A stretch of DNA of 64,000 nt from Hippea maritima DSM 10411 (GTDB lineage Bacteria; Campylobacterota_A; Desulfurellia; Desulfurellales; Hippeaceae), in contig NC_015318.1 in assembly GCF_000194135.1 (NCBI RefSeq), forward strand, positions 696,501-760,500, read 5' to 3'. A program made the position numbers and the translations under genes. Under the pieces are notes generated by a model that saw only the letters and a program-made list of their open reading frames with translations, had not been told where the DNA came from and did not search any database. Of the stretch, positions 51,378-57,652 are shown piece by piece; the stretch's first letter is position 1, and each line of letters opens with the position of its first letter.

Positions 51378-53882
51378 TTAATTGTATCGATCAAATAGTT
51401 CTTTTGGTAGTTTTATCTTTTCTGATTTTACAGATTCCATAACTTTTTTGATTATTTCCTTCCTATGTGTTGAGTATTTGTTTTTATACATATTGGCATC
51501 AGCTGTTGAGAAGAATTCCTTTAGGTTGGGGTATTGGCCCTCCTGAACTGCATAACCATACGAAGCACTGAGAAAAAAATCACTTTTTTTGTTGAATCTT
51601 TCAATTTTTTTGTTTACTCTTTCTATGTATTTTAGAGCACCTTTTTCTGTTGTGTTAGGCATTACTACCGCAAATTCATCTCCACCGATACGGGCTACGA
51701 CATCACTTGCCCTGGCTTCAGCTAATAAAATTTGGGCTAATTTTTTTATGGCAAAATCGCCTTTTTGGTGTCCCATAGCGTCGTTTATTATCTTTAGACC
51801 ATTTAAGTCATAGGTAATTATTGTAAGTGGATAACTTCTTTTATTAAACATTCTCCTAACTTCTTCCTTAAAAAATCTTCTGTTGTAGAGATTGGTTAAT
51901 GAATCGTGAAATGCTACGTATTCAACCTCTTTTTCTTTTTTATACCTCTCGGTTACATCATAAAAAGAAACAACATATAATTTTTCTTTGTTCATTTCTA
52001 TAGAACCTACAGACATATCAAGCCATTTTTCTGAGTCGGTCTTGGTTGTTATACTGACATTACAATTCTTGCAGCCGTTTTGCCCTTCGTTTATTATTTT
52101 TATGTTGCCCGTTATTATTCCCCAATTTTTTAAACCTAAGACTATGTATATATCCTCTAAATTAAACATTTCATCTATCTCTAATATTTGTTTTGCGATG
52201 TCGTTTATGTATACAACGCTACCGTCCTCGTTTAATACCAAGACACCTGTATTGATTACGTTTATAAATTTTTTGAGTTTTTCTTTTTCTTTTTCGGACT
52301 TTCTGTATAGTAAGATACTGTCGGTTATATCTTTGGCTACAGATACACATTCGTTTTCATTAAGGGGGTAAGCTATGCAAGAAAAATAATGCTTTTGGCC
52401 ATTTTTATCTACGTGGTAGTCTGTCTCTATTACAGATTGTGTTGCAAAAACCTCTTTTATCTTTTGTGTGAGGTAGGGAACCTTTGTAAATACCTTGCTT
52501 ATATTTTCCCCTACTATGTTTTCATTTTTGTGTTCTTTTAATAAATAATCTTCAATACATTTGTTGGCATCTTTTACAACTATTTCATCTCCTTTTTTTT
52601 CATAAAGTATCAAACAATCTGGCATGTATTTTACAAGATTTTTATAGCTTTTAAGCAGTCTTTCAATTTCAAGAGAGTAGATTTCTATTTTTTGTGTTAT
52701 ATCATTTATTTGGTTGGCTATTTTTTCTATGTCCGTTGTTTTTATCTTTTTTGTGTCAATTCTTTTGGATTTCTTGTAATTAACAAAGAAGTTATGGAGC
52801 GTTTCTATATCTGAGCGTATTGTTCTTGTTAGTATTGCATACAGAATTAATAAGACTGATATAGCTATAAATGTTATTATTATGATAGTTGCTATTCTTT
52901 GAGGCAGGTTTCTCTTAAATTTATTTTCAATTGCCTCTAAATAATCTTTCTTTAAATCTTTGAGATAATATCCTGTTCCTATTATCCAGTTATACGGTTT
53001 GTAAATCTCCATGTACGAAAGTTTGAGTCCATTTTCATTTGAGTGTGGTACTTTATAGTTATACTCTAATAAAGAGTACCCTTGTTTTCCTAAATCTCTT
53101 AAATACATTTTTCTGTAGAATCTACCGTTGGCATCTTTTATTTTGTCTGACATGCATTTACCCACCATCTCTGGTTTGTTTGGATTTACAATAGCTTTTG
53201 CAAAACAGTCACCACCATTTATATTTAACAGCTTAGAAATAAATATATATCCATGCTTCTTTTCGCCGTATCTGTAGTTTGTTAAATACTTAACTATGTT
53301 TTGTTTTATTCTTTCTTCTATACGGTTTAATGAACTTAAATATACGAAAAGCCAATTTAAAGGTTTGAAGGTTTTTGCATATCCTATCATCTTTTCTCCA
53401 TTGCAAGTGGTTTCAATAAACCCTTCTTTTATGTTTTTCGGTATACAGTTGAAGCCTTTAAAAAGTGTTTTGTTGGTTTTTTTATCTATGACGAAGCAAT
53501 AGATATCATCGTTTATATTACCCTCAACTTTTAAGAAACTCAAGAATTCATGTTTTAATTCTTGATTTTTCCTGTTTTTATTTACATTGTACAGTGTCAT
53601 GGCTACATTGTATCTTAGGCTTAGTTTGTCTTTTAGATTTTTTATAAACTTTTGCTTTTCGTTTTTTCTTATTTTGTTTATGTAATTTTTAATAGAACTT
53701 ATTTTATGCTTTAACATTTCTTTCTTTTCTTTTTTGTACAGTTCTTGTGTTATTTCTATAGTGGATTTCATTTTTGATTTTACGTCAAATATCCAAAAAA
53801 CACCTATAAAAAATGATGTAACTATTATACTTCCTACAATCGTAGTTATAAAAAGCTTATGTAGGCTTATCTTTTTTTTCAT
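51378..53882 (-). CDS. Membrane diguanylate cyclase: Cache-PAS-PAS-GGDEF
   Basis: An 834-residue sensor. A membrane helix (about 10-30), a large extracytoplasmic Cache-type sensor (31-335, with HGYIFISKLLNINGGD and YMEIYKPYNWIIGTGYYL) and a second helix (about 336-358) lead to two PAS-like domains (about 410-520 and 540-655). The GGDEF domain (660-825) starts FHDSLTNLYNRRFF, with signature RIGGDEFAVVMPNT. The inhibitory I-site RxxD (RASD) sits five residues before it. It should make c-di-GMP in response to a small external ligand. It is probably active, unlike the two other GGDEF proteins here. Confidence 0.92.
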   Translation of the reverse strand: MKKKISLHKLFITTIVGSIIVTSFFIGVFWIFDVKSKMKSTIEITQELYKKEKKEMLKHKISSIKNYINKIRKNEKQKFIKNLKDKLSLRYNVAMTLYNVNKNRKNQELKHEFLSFLKVEGNINDDIYCFVIDKKTNKTLFKGFNCIPKNIKEGFIETTCNGEKMIGYAKTFKPLNWLFVYLSSLNRIEERIKQNIVKYLTNYRYGEKKHGYIFISKLLNINGGDCFAKAIVNPNKPEMVGKCMSDKIKDANGRFYRKMYLRDLGKQGYSLLEYNYKVPHSNENGLKLSYMEIYKPYNWIIGTGYYLKDLKKDYLEAIENKFKRNLPQRIATIIIITFIAISVLLILYAILTRTIRSDIETLHNFFVNYKKSKRIDTKKIKTTDIEKIANQINDITQKIEIYSLEIERLLKSYKNLVKYMPDCLILYEKKGDEIVVKDANKCIEDYLLKEHKNENIVGENISKVFTKVPYLTQKIKEVFATQSVIETDYHVDKNGQKHYFSCIAYPLNENECVSVAKDITDSILLYRKSEKEKEKLKKFINVINTGVLVLNEDGSVVYINDIAKQILEIDEMFNLEDIYIVLGLKNWGIITGNIKIINEGQNGCKNCNVSITTKTDSEKWLDMSVGSIEMNKEKLYVVSFYDVTERYKKEKEVEYVAFHDSLTNLYNRRFFKEEVRRMFNKRSYPLTIITYDLNGLKIINDAMGHQKGDFAIKKLAQILLAEARASDVVARIGGDEFAVVMPNTTEKGALKYIERVNKKIERFNKKSDFFLSASYGYAVQEGQYPNLKEFFSTADANMYKNKYSTHRKEIIKKVMESVKSEKIKLPKELFDRYN

Positions 53883-54005: not shown

Positions 54006-54024
54006 TTTACCCCCCTTTCCGCAC
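54006..54024 (+). repeat. Left terminal inverted repeat of the IS
   Basis: Begins TTTACCCCCC and ends TTTCCGCAC. It matches the reverse complement of the right end at 16 of 19 positions. Confidence 0.7.
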
Positions 54025-54115
54025 TCAAACCTCTATCTTATTTGACCAAACCCAAATGCACAGAGTAAAAGAATGAAAAGGGTCTTAGAATAAACGGAAC
54101 AGAAAATGCTTACAT

Positions 54116-54135
54116 CTCCCTCTAAAAAGAGGGGG
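54116..54135 (+). promoter_or_regulatory. Hairpin sequestering the transposase ribosome-binding site
   Basis: CTCCCTCT-AAAA-AGAGGGGG forms an 8-bp stem (one G-U pair). Its 3' arm is the purine-rich Shine-Dalgarno lying 7 bases before the transposase ATG. Folding would hide the ribosome site, limiting transposase synthesis. Confidence 0.6.
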
Positions 54136-54142
54136 TATTTAA

Positions 54143-55891
54143 ATGTTACAACAAAAAGCAGTTATCAAGAACATGGATCACTTAGGACTAATAGCTGGTA
54201 TGATAGACGAACTAAAGATAGCAGAAACCATAGATGATGAAATACCATCATCAAGCAAATCAAAGAACCTAAGCTATGGCGAAGCAACAAAGGCAATGAT
54301 CCTTAACGGTCTTGGTTATGTCAACAAGCAACTCTACCTAACTCCTCTCTTCTTCAAAGACAAACCACTAAAGAGATTATTCGGAAGGGATGTTGACTTC
54401 CCTTGGTTCAACGATGATGCACTTGGTAGAACATTAGATAAGCTCTTTGAATACGGCGTAAGTGAACTGTATGAAAAGATAGCAAGCAGGGCACTCAAAA
54501 TACTGAACCTTACACCCTCTACCATACACTTAGACAGCGCAAGCTTTCATCTTGACGGTAAGTATCCAAACCAAAAGACGAAAGAAGAAAAAGAAAAAGA
54601 AAAAGGAAAAGTAAAAGAAAGAAATGGAAAAGAAGAAAAGGGAAATAACAGTGAAGGAAAATGGGGAAAAGGAGGAAAAGAAGAAGAGTATGAGCCAACC
54701 CCAGTCTTTATCACCCAGGGATACAGCAGAGACCACCATCCAGAGCTCAATCAGGTGGTTTTAAATCTTATAGTAGAACACAAAGCAGGCATTCCCATAT
54801 GGATGAAGCCTGCAGATGGTAATAAAATAGATACACAGGCATTTGCCAATATAGTAAAGGAGCATATTAACTCTTTAAAGAATGCTAATAATACAAAGAC
54901 AAAGGTGATAGCCGATGCAGCCCTCTTTAGTTCTAAAACAATGGAAGAGTTTAAGAAAAACAACATGCTTTTCATCTCAAGGGTTCCATCGAAACTAAAA
55001 CAGGCAAAAGAGATACTCAAAAACCACAATGAAGAGGAATTTATTCAGCTTGATGAGAACTATCAGGCTATCCAGTACACAGTAGATTATGAAGGAATGA
55101 AACAACAGTGGGTTTTATACAAAAGCAGTTATGCTAAATCAAGAGGGGACAAAACGATAAAGAAAGAGTATCAAGAAAAAGAAAAACAGGAAACAAAACT
55201 CATTGAGAAATTACAAAAGAGAGCATTTTTCTGTGAAGCTGATGCAAGAAAAGCATTTGAAGAAAAAACAAAGAAGTTAGAATGCATAATGATATCAGAG
55301 GCTAAACTCATATCAAAGCCCAAATACAAAACAAGAGGACGACCAAAACCAAATGCTAAACCAGACCACTATGAATACTACTGGATTATAGAGACCAAGC
55401 CAAATGAAGAATACCTAAAACAAAAACAGAACCAAAAGAGTGGCCTTTTTATCCTTGCAACCAATGATATGACACTGTCTGCCAAGGAACTGCTTGATGA
55501 GTATAAATCTCAACAGAGAATAGAAAGGGGCTTTAGGTTCTTAAAATCACCAGAGTTTTTAAGCGATGCCATGTTTCTAAAGAACCCAAAACGCATTGAA
55601 GCAATGCTTATGATAATGACACTCTCTTTGCTTGTCTATTCTGCCTTGGAATACAGAATAAGAAGTGAGCTTAAAAATCAAAACAAATCCTTTCCCAATC
55701 AACTTGGCAAACCCATTCAGAATCCCACTGCAAGATGGGTGTTTGAGAACTTCTTTGCTATACATCTACTCTTACTTAATGGGCAAGAGCAGATTGTTGG
55801 GTTGGAAAACAAGCATAGGCTGATATTGGAACTATTGGGTAGTAATTATATGGGGTTTTATGGTATAAATGGAGAAAGAGGTGCGGAATGA
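54143..55891 (+). CDS. IS1634-family DDE transposase
   Basis: A 582-residue transposase of the IS4-like superfamily. The DDE triad fits D131 (IHLDSASFHLDGKYPN), D258 (VIADAALFSS) and the Glu of QQRIERGFRFLKSP, which also makes the Y-x-R-x-E-x-K signature. A Lys/Glu/Gly-rich insertion at about 144-182 separates the first Asp from EPTPVFITQGYSRDHHPE. It is encoded by an almost pure purine stretch. The reading frame is intact and the stop codon lies inside the right terminal repeat. Confidence 0.93.
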   Translation: MLQQKAVIKNMDHLGLIAGMIDELKIAETIDDEIPSSSKSKNLSYGEATKAMILNGLGYVNKQLYLTPLFFKDKPLKRLFGRDVDFPWFNDDALGRTLDKLFEYGVSELYEKIASRALKILNLTPSTIHLDSASFHLDGKYPNQKTKEEKEKEKGKVKERNGKEEKGNNSEGKWGKGGKEEEYEPTPVFITQGYSRDHHPELNQVVLNLIVEHKAGIPIWMKPADGNKIDTQAFANIVKEHINSLKNANNTKTKVIADAALFSSKTMEEFKKNNMLFISRVPSKLKQAKEILKNHNEEEFIQLDENYQAIQYTVDYEGMKQQWVLYKSSYAKSRGDKTIKKEYQEKEKQETKLIEKLQKRAFFCEADARKAFEEKTKKLECIMISEAKLISKPKYKTRGRPKPNAKPDHYEYYWIIETKPNEEYLKQKQNQKSGLFILATNDMTLSAKELLDEYKSQQRIERGFRFLKSPEFLSDAMFLKNPKRIEAMLMIMTLSLLVYSALEYRIRSELKNQNKSFPNQLGKPIQNPTARWVFENFFAIHLLLLNGQEQIVGLENKHRLILELLGSNYMGFYGINGERGAE

Positions 55892-55899
55892 GGGATAAA
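55881..55899 (-). repeat. Right terminal inverted repeat of the IS
   Basis: Reads GTGCGGAA then TGAGGGATAAA on the plus strand. It contains the transposase stop codon. Confidence 0.7.
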
Positions 55900-55944: not shown

Positions 55945-55973
55945 TTGACTTTTTTATGCCCTTGTGTTATCTA
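55945..55973 (+). promoter_or_regulatory. Sigma-70-type promoter for the ODP-chemoreceptor operon
   Basis: TTGACT (55945-55950), 17 bases, then TATCTA (55968-55973), 42 bases before the ODP start codon, just outside the IS right end. Confidence 0.55.
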
Positions 55974-56015
55974 ATTTTGTAAAGAAAGATTTAGTTTTGC
56001 AAAGGAGGTGTTGAT

Positions 56016-56801
56016 ATGGGTGAATATAACAATAAACCAAATAGCGAGATAGATATGGAAAACGGTGAAATACTTTATGATGATGGCAAACATAAGTTTA
56101 TTTGGCTTGGATGGGGTAGGCTAGAAACTGGATTAATTCAAACCAATCAATACCTTATAATTGATGGCAATAAGGGTGTGCTTTTAGATCCAGGTGGCAT
56201 ACATATTTTCCCCAAGGTTGTTGCCAATGTTACCAAATACATAGATTTAGATGATATAGATGTTATATTTTTCTCTCATCAAGACCCTGATGTCAGTTCA
56301 GGCATACCGATGTGGCTTTCTGTTACGAATGCAAATGTCTATATCTCTGATTTGTGGGTTAGATTTCTTCCTCATTTTGGTATAACGGATTTTAGCAGGA
56401 TAAAAGGAATCCCAGACGGTGGTCAGAGGTTAGGGGATCTTGAAGTGATTCCGGCACACTTTATGCACTCACCTGGCAATCACATAGTATTTGACTCAAA
56501 ATCAAAAATACTATTCAATGCCGATATAGGTGCCGCTGTATTTAATGAAGGTGGTGAATATCTATTTGTAGATAAAGATAACTTTAATGCCCATACTGCA
56601 TTAATGGAAGGGTTCCATAAACGTTACATAGCTTCATCAAATGCGTGTCGTTATTATGTAAATAAAGTGAGATCTCTATCACCTAAGATGATAGCCCCAC
56701 AGCATGGTGGCGTATTTAGGGATGAGGCAGTGGAAATGTTTTTAAATTGGTTAGGAAACCTTAAATGCGGTACAGATATAATAGATGAATTGAGTAGGTG
56801 A
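56016..56801 (+). CDS. ODP-type diiron oxygen-binding protein (metallo-beta-lactamase fold)
   Basis: A 261-residue stand-alone protein with the flavodiiron-type beta-lactamase fold but no flavodoxin domain. Predicted diiron ligands are H88, D90 and D92 (FSHQDPDV), H151 (HFMHSPGN), D170 (NADIGAAV) and H230 (APQHGGVF). The H-x-D-x-D pattern is that of flavodiiron and ODP proteins rather than of hydrolases. In Treponema an ODP protein partners a soluble chemoreceptor as an oxygen/iron sensor. Here the next gene is exactly such a receptor, starting five bases after the ODP stop codon. AAAGGAGG precedes the ATG. Confidence 0.82.
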   Translation: MGEYNNKPNSEIDMENGEILYDDGKHKFIWLGWGRLETGLIQTNQYLIIDGNKGVLLDPGGIHIFPKVVANVTKYIDLDDIDVIFFSHQDPDVSSGIPMWLSVTNANVYISDLWVRFLPHFGITDFSRIKGIPDGGQRLGDLEVIPAHFMHSPGNHIVFDSKSKILFNADIGAAVFNEGGEYLFVDKDNFNAHTALMEGFHKRYIASSNACRYYVNKVRSLSPKMIAPQHGGVFRDEAVEMFLNWLGNLKCGTDIIDELSR

Positions 56802-56806
56802 GAGAT

Positions 56807-57652
56807 ATGGCAGTAAAGAATAATATGAAATCAATGAATGCCATAAGAAAGCTTTCAAGGGGTGTTGTAAAGAGCTCCTTTGTATCAACTGCCACCGTAG
56901 AAAGTTTTAAAATTATATCTAACAGTGTAGAGTATTTAGAAGATCAGATGAAAACATTTTCTGCCTCTCTTGAGGAAATGGAAGGTAACCTTAAGGGTAT
57001 GGCGAATAATGTATCAAAGATAAACTCAGACTTTGAGGAGTTTAATCTAAATATAAACTCTATCTCGGACAAGATTACAGAAAGAAATGATGAAATAGAG
57101 GGAAGAAAGTCGGAGATAGACGATTTTGTAAATGGTATAAAGAGTCTAACCACCGTTACCGAGGATATAAATAAAGCTGCAGGCAGTATATCTGATATTG
57201 CAAAGCAAACTAACTTATTGGCATTAAATGCTGCAATCGAGGCAGCAAGAGTCGGCGAAAAAGGCAAGGGTTTTGCCGTTGTAGCTGATGAGATAAAGAA
57301 ACTTGCAAACAAGACAGATAGCATAACAAACAATATTCAGGAAATTTTATACGAGTTTAACTACAAACTAACAAGCACTGTAGAAAGGGTTGAATCGGTT
57401 AAAGAATTCTTAGATCAATTAAGAGGGGATTTTAATGAATTTGCAGAGACTTTTATCAAAATTAATGAGAGTTCAAATGAAATAGCAGAATCGCTAAATG
57501 AGAATAGCTTAGCTATAAATGAGCATGCAGAGGTTATAGATGATTTGACCAATAGGATAGTTAAAATATACGAGTTATTGAGTAGCATTATTAAAATAAT
57601 TAACACACTTCAAGATGTAAACTTAAAGATAGAACAACTTGTTAAGCTTTAG
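56807..57652 (+). CDS. Soluble methyl-accepting chemotaxis-type receptor
   Basis: A 281-residue cytoplasmic receptor with no membrane segment and no recognisable sensor domain. The whole protein is coiled coil. The signalling tip is canonical: ISDIAKQTNLLALNAAIEAA, then GEKGKGFAVVADEIKKLANKT (about residues 125-170). About 110 residues on each side form the receptor legs. It probably takes its input from the ODP protein encoded directly upstream. The ATG at 56807 follows GGTGAGAG; a GTG nine bases earlier overlaps the ODP stop. No CheW/CheA genes are in the window. Confidence 0.88.
   Translation: MAVKNNMKSMNAIRKLSRGVVKSSFVSTATVESFKIISNSVEYLEDQMKTFSASLEEMEGNLKGMANNVSKINSDFEEFNLNINSISDKITERNDEIEGRKSEIDDFVNGIKSLTTVTEDINKAAGSISDIAKQTNLLALNAAIEAARVGEKGKGFAVVADEIKKLANKTDSITNNIQEILYEFNYKLTSTVERVESVKEFLDQLRGDFNEFAETFIKINESSNEIAESLNENSLAINEHAEVIDDLTNRIVKIYELLSSIIKIINTLQDVNLKIEQLVKL

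Follow-up and report, generated by a model that had tools for sequence, protein, structure and literature searches.

A probable oxygen-binding diiron protein paired with a sensor-less soluble chemoreceptor in Hippea maritima

Introduction

In the genome of Hippea maritima, a single contig of 1,694,430 bp, two overlapping genes very probably encode a diiron sensor of oxygen and iron and the chemoreceptor without sensor module from which this protein can detach, a pair that likely steers the cell away from oxygen. The genes lie in a stretch of 64,000 nucleotides, analysed here as a whole and called the window (Table 1), and a homologue search gave Hippea and Desulfurella as the nearest named relatives. 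An earlier note on this DNA had already proposed an ODP (oxygen-binding diiron protein) sensor combined with a bare receptor, a proposal that now has strong support from the profile score, the metal ligands, the fold, the near-constant neighbourhood of the two genes and their place among the che genes in a sister family, whereas the novelty that the note attached to it did not hold. The predicted role in oxygen/iron taxis is well supported by homology. The sequence itself gave the family and ligands, the predicted fold, the anatomy of the receptor, the conservation of the pair, its che-operon location in the sister family and a complete Che set with a single CheA; the iron/O2 chemistry, the contact between ODP and receptor and the sign of the response we infer from work with Treponema denticola and Thermotoga maritima.

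Table 1. Features of the ODP-receptor locus and of its upstream region (window coordinates)
Feature	Position	Strand	Basis
dCache-PAS-GGDEF protein, upstream of the insertion element	51378-53882	-	
IS1634-family element, upstream of ODP	54006-55899		
Imperfect inverted ends of the element, 19 nt	54006-54024 / 55881-55899		
Sigma-70-type promoter-like site: TTGACT, spacer of about 16-17 nt, TG-TTATCT	55945-55972	+	consensus match only
Shine-Dalgarno AAAGGAGGT for ODP	56001-56009	+	sequence
ODP, 261 aa, MBL fold without flavodoxin	56016-56801	+	PF19583, PDB matches, predicted fold
HQDPD metal motif (H88, D90, D92), replacing flavodiiron HxExDH	56277-56291	+	invariant in 44/44 homologues
HFMH: metal ligand H151 and ODP-specific H148	56457-56468	+	both invariant in 44/44
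D170, expected bridging aspartate	56523-56525	+	invariant in aligned homologues
PQHG motif, Q229-H230: ligand H230 and Gln	56700-56705	+	invariant in 44/44
Sensor-less soluble chemoreceptor (MCP), 284 aa, GTG start	56798-57652	+	PF00015, predicted helices, hydropathy
Receptor hairpin tip QTNLLALNAAIEAARVGEKGKGFAVVADEI, CheA/CheW-contact region	57206-57295	+	best-conserved stretch in orthologues and distant partners

A Predicted Diiron Protein of the ODP Family

Profile score, ligand set, fold and coupling to a receptor gene all place the first protein of the pair among the ODP sensors. The profile search gave only two Pfam matches, PF19583 ('ODP family beta lactamase'), with 232.4 bits against a cut-off of 27.2, and the weaker Lactamase_B, with 47.3 bits. 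This agrees with the diiron protein described in the earlier note and with its statement that flavodoxin is missing; the note had named the ODP profile as a check and a closer resemblance to hydrolytic enzymes of the beta-lactamase fold as the result that would speak against it, and the ODP profile scored by far the higher. In searches of the PDB with phmmer, the top entries were the 'oxygen-binding diiron protein' structures 6qrq and 6qwo (E about 3.5e-93), 6qnm and 6r9n reached about 7e-91, and flavodiiron proteins appeared only after the ODP entries, with E-values of 1e-5 or weaker. The AlphaFold model (pLDDT 93.2, pTM 0.92) points in the same direction: the ten best PDB chains by fold were all ODPs, the closest being 6qwo from T. 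maritima, with a TMq of 0.82-0.90 to the T. maritima and T. denticola ODP structures, whereas flavodiiron proteins reached about 0.7 and hydrolases (metallo-beta-lactamases) about 0.6.

Two other identities were considered for this protein and set aside. A flavodiiron protein does not fit a chain of 261 residues with HQDPDV, no C-terminal flavodoxin match and a fold closer to the ODPs; likewise, an MBL hydrolase does not fit a protein that has HQDPDV at 88-93 instead of the HxHxDH zinc motif, and again a fold closer to the ODPs.

The Metal Site

The six ligands listed in the earlier note (H88, D90, D92, H151, D170 and H230) are all correct and invariant in the 44 aligned homologues, and the same is true of Q229, a further residue of the ligand motifs that had been omitted there. 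D170 presumably acts as the bridging aspartate, a role that we take from flavodiiron proteins. The second motif reads HxDxDV in the Hippea ODP, so that V93 occupies the position of the histidine missing in T. maritima ODP, for which a glutamine, the counterpart of Q229, has been reported as the replacing ligand (PMC7785958). The flavodiiron protein of the same genome (L003) carries HTEQDH and PSHG, that is, a serine at the position of Q229. As a separate observation, H148 (56457-56459), three residues ahead of H151, is invariant in free-standing ODPs, and its position is occupied by proline in the ODP-GGDEF proteins described below and in the flavodiiron protein.

Diiron sites bind several small oxidants, and the site of this pair might accordingly answer not to O2 but to another signal, for example NO, peroxide or iron by itself. 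Sensing of Fe(II) besides O2 has in fact been reported for the T. denticola ODP, judging from the title of Muok et al. 2019 as cited in PMC7666581, which lends this alternative some weight. We regard it as improbable nonetheless, in view of the 56% identity to the T. maritima ODP, with which the ligands are shared, and of the 52% identity to the peroxy-diiron structure 6r9n, both of which favour O2.

The Soluble Receptor

The second protein is a soluble MCP, with a canonical CheA/CheW tip in its MCPsignal domain (PF00015, 120.4 bits), which was the sole domain above cut-off in the profile search. Its model consists of two helices, 2-151 and 153-283, that meet at the conserved tip; the pTM of 0.51 is expected of a lone long hairpin, and only the secondary structure was therefore used. 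The best 19-residue Kyte-Doolittle mean along the chain is 1.09, and the receptor therefore has no membrane helix. The description in the earlier note, a chemoreceptor with neither sensor domain nor membrane helices, thus stands. Its similarity to 3g67/3g6b, a soluble receptor of T. maritima, extends along most of the latter chain. A search of the Hippea receptor for strict methylation motifs gave none, although CheR and CheB are encoded in the genome. The receptor arms are weakly conserved between phyla, and for this reason no docking site can be named.

Conservation of the Gene Pair

The GTG start of the receptor overlaps the TGA stop of ODP (GTGA, 4 nt shared), and both this overlap and its conservation suggest that the two genes are co-transcribed. 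The earlier note had pointed to the co-occurrence of ODP and receptor as a check, and 79 of the 80 nearest bacterial homologues of the ODP were found to be followed immediately, on the same strand, by a soluble receptor, typically of about 290 aa. These homologues come from at least eight phyla, comprising Campylobacterota, Spirochaetota, Aquificota, Thermotogota, Nitrospirota, Methylomirabilota, Thermodesulfobacteriota and Synergistota together with other bins, and the figure of 79 is made up of 75 loci in the main count, three more (L122, L133 and L160), and L139, where the receptor frame overlaps an over-long stop-to-stop ODP frame. In the sole exception (L129), judged by eye, receptors precede the gene and a CheR-like frame follows it. 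By comparison, only 3 of the 416 genes lying more than two positions from ODP in these loci encode receptors. Moreover, distances between ODPs and between receptors are correlated (r = 0.88 over 74 pairs, with a permuted maximum of 0.08), shared ancestry contributing to this value. No 19-residue stretch above a hydropathy of 1.6 occurs among the 75 paired receptors. The pairing of ODP with a receptor is not due to chance.

Against this background, the notion that the ODP is an enzyme (an O2 or NO reductase, or a hydrolase) lying beside a receptor gene by accident is even less probable than a change of signal: the superfamily does include reductases of O2 or NO in the flavodiiron proteins, and the protein has a Lactamase_B match of 47 bits, but no flavodoxin or rubredoxin domain is present as electron supply, HxDxDV stands in place of HxExDH, the HxHxDH hydrolase motif is absent, a separate true flavodiiron protein (L003) is encoded in the same genome, and the receptor accompanies the gene in 79/80 relatives.

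Chemotaxis Genes and the Link to CheA

For the sensor-receptor pair, a connection with the chemotaxis machinery is visible in the sister family. Three genomes of that family (L073-L075, the first being the same genome as Desulfurella acetivorans A63) share the gene order cheA-ODP-MCP-cheW. The genes are tightly packed: in L073, ODP begins 2 nt after cheA and overlaps MCP by 4 nt, and cheW comes 10 nt after MCP. This location of the pair between cheA and cheW in Desulfurella constitutes clean genetic evidence that the main CheA receives the signal of ODP and its receptor. Hippea differs in that cheW directly follows cheA in the che operon, after a 10-nt gap, and the ODP-MCP pair is instead found upstream of purE; in a Nitrospirota genome (L110), ODP comes directly after cheB. 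The genome of the window encodes one CheA, with a receiver domain, along with CheW, CheV, CheX, CheY, CheR and CheB, a CheZ-like protein below cut-off, and about ten receptors. As only one CheA is encoded, the main array is the most likely place for the soluble receptor.

The Upstream Region

The earlier note had set the start of the locus at 55945, which is the first base of the -35-like hexamer TTGACT (55945-55950). Of the 11 orthologue upstream regions in the alignment, 10 retain TTGAC, accompanied by a TTAT- or GTAT-like -10, and the start at which the remaining one (L007) had been trimmed is uncertain. Further upstream we find an IS1634-family element, present in the genome as five near-identical full-length copies, that of the window included, and many fragments. 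A role of this element in disrupting ODP or in supplying its promoter was considered and rejected: it ends near 55899, about 45 bp short of the conserved TTGAC, and thus appears neither disruptive nor a promoter source.

A Proposed Mechanism

In T. denticola, ODP is the oxygen sensor coupled to a receptor without transmembrane or sensing modules, and it modulates CheA (PMC7666581); its interaction with the receptor depends on conformation (PMC6978683). By analogy, the cytoplasmic MBL-fold ODP of Hippea would hold a non-haem diiron centre that binds O2 and also reports on the iron supply. Its state (apo, diferrous or peroxo-diferric) would alter the contact with the receptor, whose hairpin would in turn alter the activity of CheA through the CheW/CheA contacts at its tip, and CheY-P would then alter flagellar rotation. 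The outcome would most likely be oxygen avoidance, a sign suggested by the anaerobic life of the organism. In cryo-ET of T. denticola, ODP did not show up at an obvious place within the array (PMC7666581), and the protein may therefore act peripherally.

Other ODP-Fold Proteins and Neighbouring Genes

Beyond the pair, other occurrences of the ODP fold were observed in Desulfurellales. In two relatives of Hippea (L053 and L054), an ODP paralogue is fused to GGDEF in proteins of 582-589 aa, likely oxygen/iron-controlled diguanylate cyclases. In the genome of the window this protein is apparently broken or split, into an ODP part of 410 aa and a GGDEF part of 147 aa (L056, 2917-4657; genome C1, 286916-288656, minus strand). 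The order also has a second clade of free-standing ODPs (L042-L049 and L059), with about 40-45% identity and no receptor following the gene; in L044 and L046 an L025-like receptor gene lies divergently to it. It is tempting, if rather speculative, to picture the ODP fold in Desulfurellales as a general intracellular module for sensing oxygen and iron that serves several outputs within one cell, with taxis (ODP-MCP), cyclic-di-GMP (ODP-GGDEF) and a second free-standing ODP, next to a flavodiiron protein that detoxifies O2. In a Nitrospiraceae locus (L105, 3287-5938), the gene before ODP encodes an 883-aa fusion with weak matches to cytochrome bd subunit I and to multihaem cytochromes, and frames of 883 aa occupy the same place before ODP in L103 and L116.

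Comparison with Known Systems

The 2019 ODP study, as it is summarised in the TREND paper (PMC7319448), described ODP-receptor operons in two gene orders, operons of ODP with other signalling genes, and fusions of ODP to signalling domains, in bacteria and archaea. Three co-mentions in the literature included no evident paper on Hippea chemotaxis. The earlier note had seen a widening of the design in the occurrence of this system in a probable thermophilic anaerobe. This does not hold: structures of the ODP of T. maritima have been available since 2019, and Thermotogota, Aquificota, Thermodesulfovibrio and further groups of thermophiles commonly carry the gene pair, so that thermophily adds nothing new. 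The receptor directly downstream of ODP in a Thermotogaceae locus (L163) has the crystallised soluble receptor 3g67 as its best match (E 4e-31).

The T. maritima ODP (6qrq, 6qwo), from a host that is likewise a thermophilic anaerobe, is 55-56% identical to that of Hippea, with a TM of about 0.90 and the same ligands, including the Gln of PQHG. The receptors are more distant, 3g67 being only about 24% identical to the Hippea receptor, which is longer at both ends (284 aa versus 213 in the crystal). In T. denticola, the ODP TDE2498 (6qnm, 6r9n) shares 52-53% identity with the Hippea protein, its genetically coupled receptor TDE2496 lacks transmembrane and sensor modules as in Hippea, and each genome has a single CheA; the locus numbers suggest one intervening gene in T. 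denticola, whereas the Hippea genes overlap by 4 nt. Flavodiiron proteins such as TM0755 of T. maritima (1vme) and ROO of D. gigas (1e5d) share the core fold and a related metal site, but at 16-20% identity, and the Hippea ODP has no flavodoxin and HxDxDV rather than HxExDH.

The Hippea pair is thus a further example of the sensor-receptor pair known from T. denticola and T. maritima, for which the che-operon location in Desulfurella is a supporting detail. Among the lineages examined, that of Hippea and Desulfurella thereby joins those with ODP-coupled chemotaxis, and since the genome has only one CheA, a thermostable ODP with its receptor would offer a convenient system to study how a sensor docks on a bare receptor hairpin.
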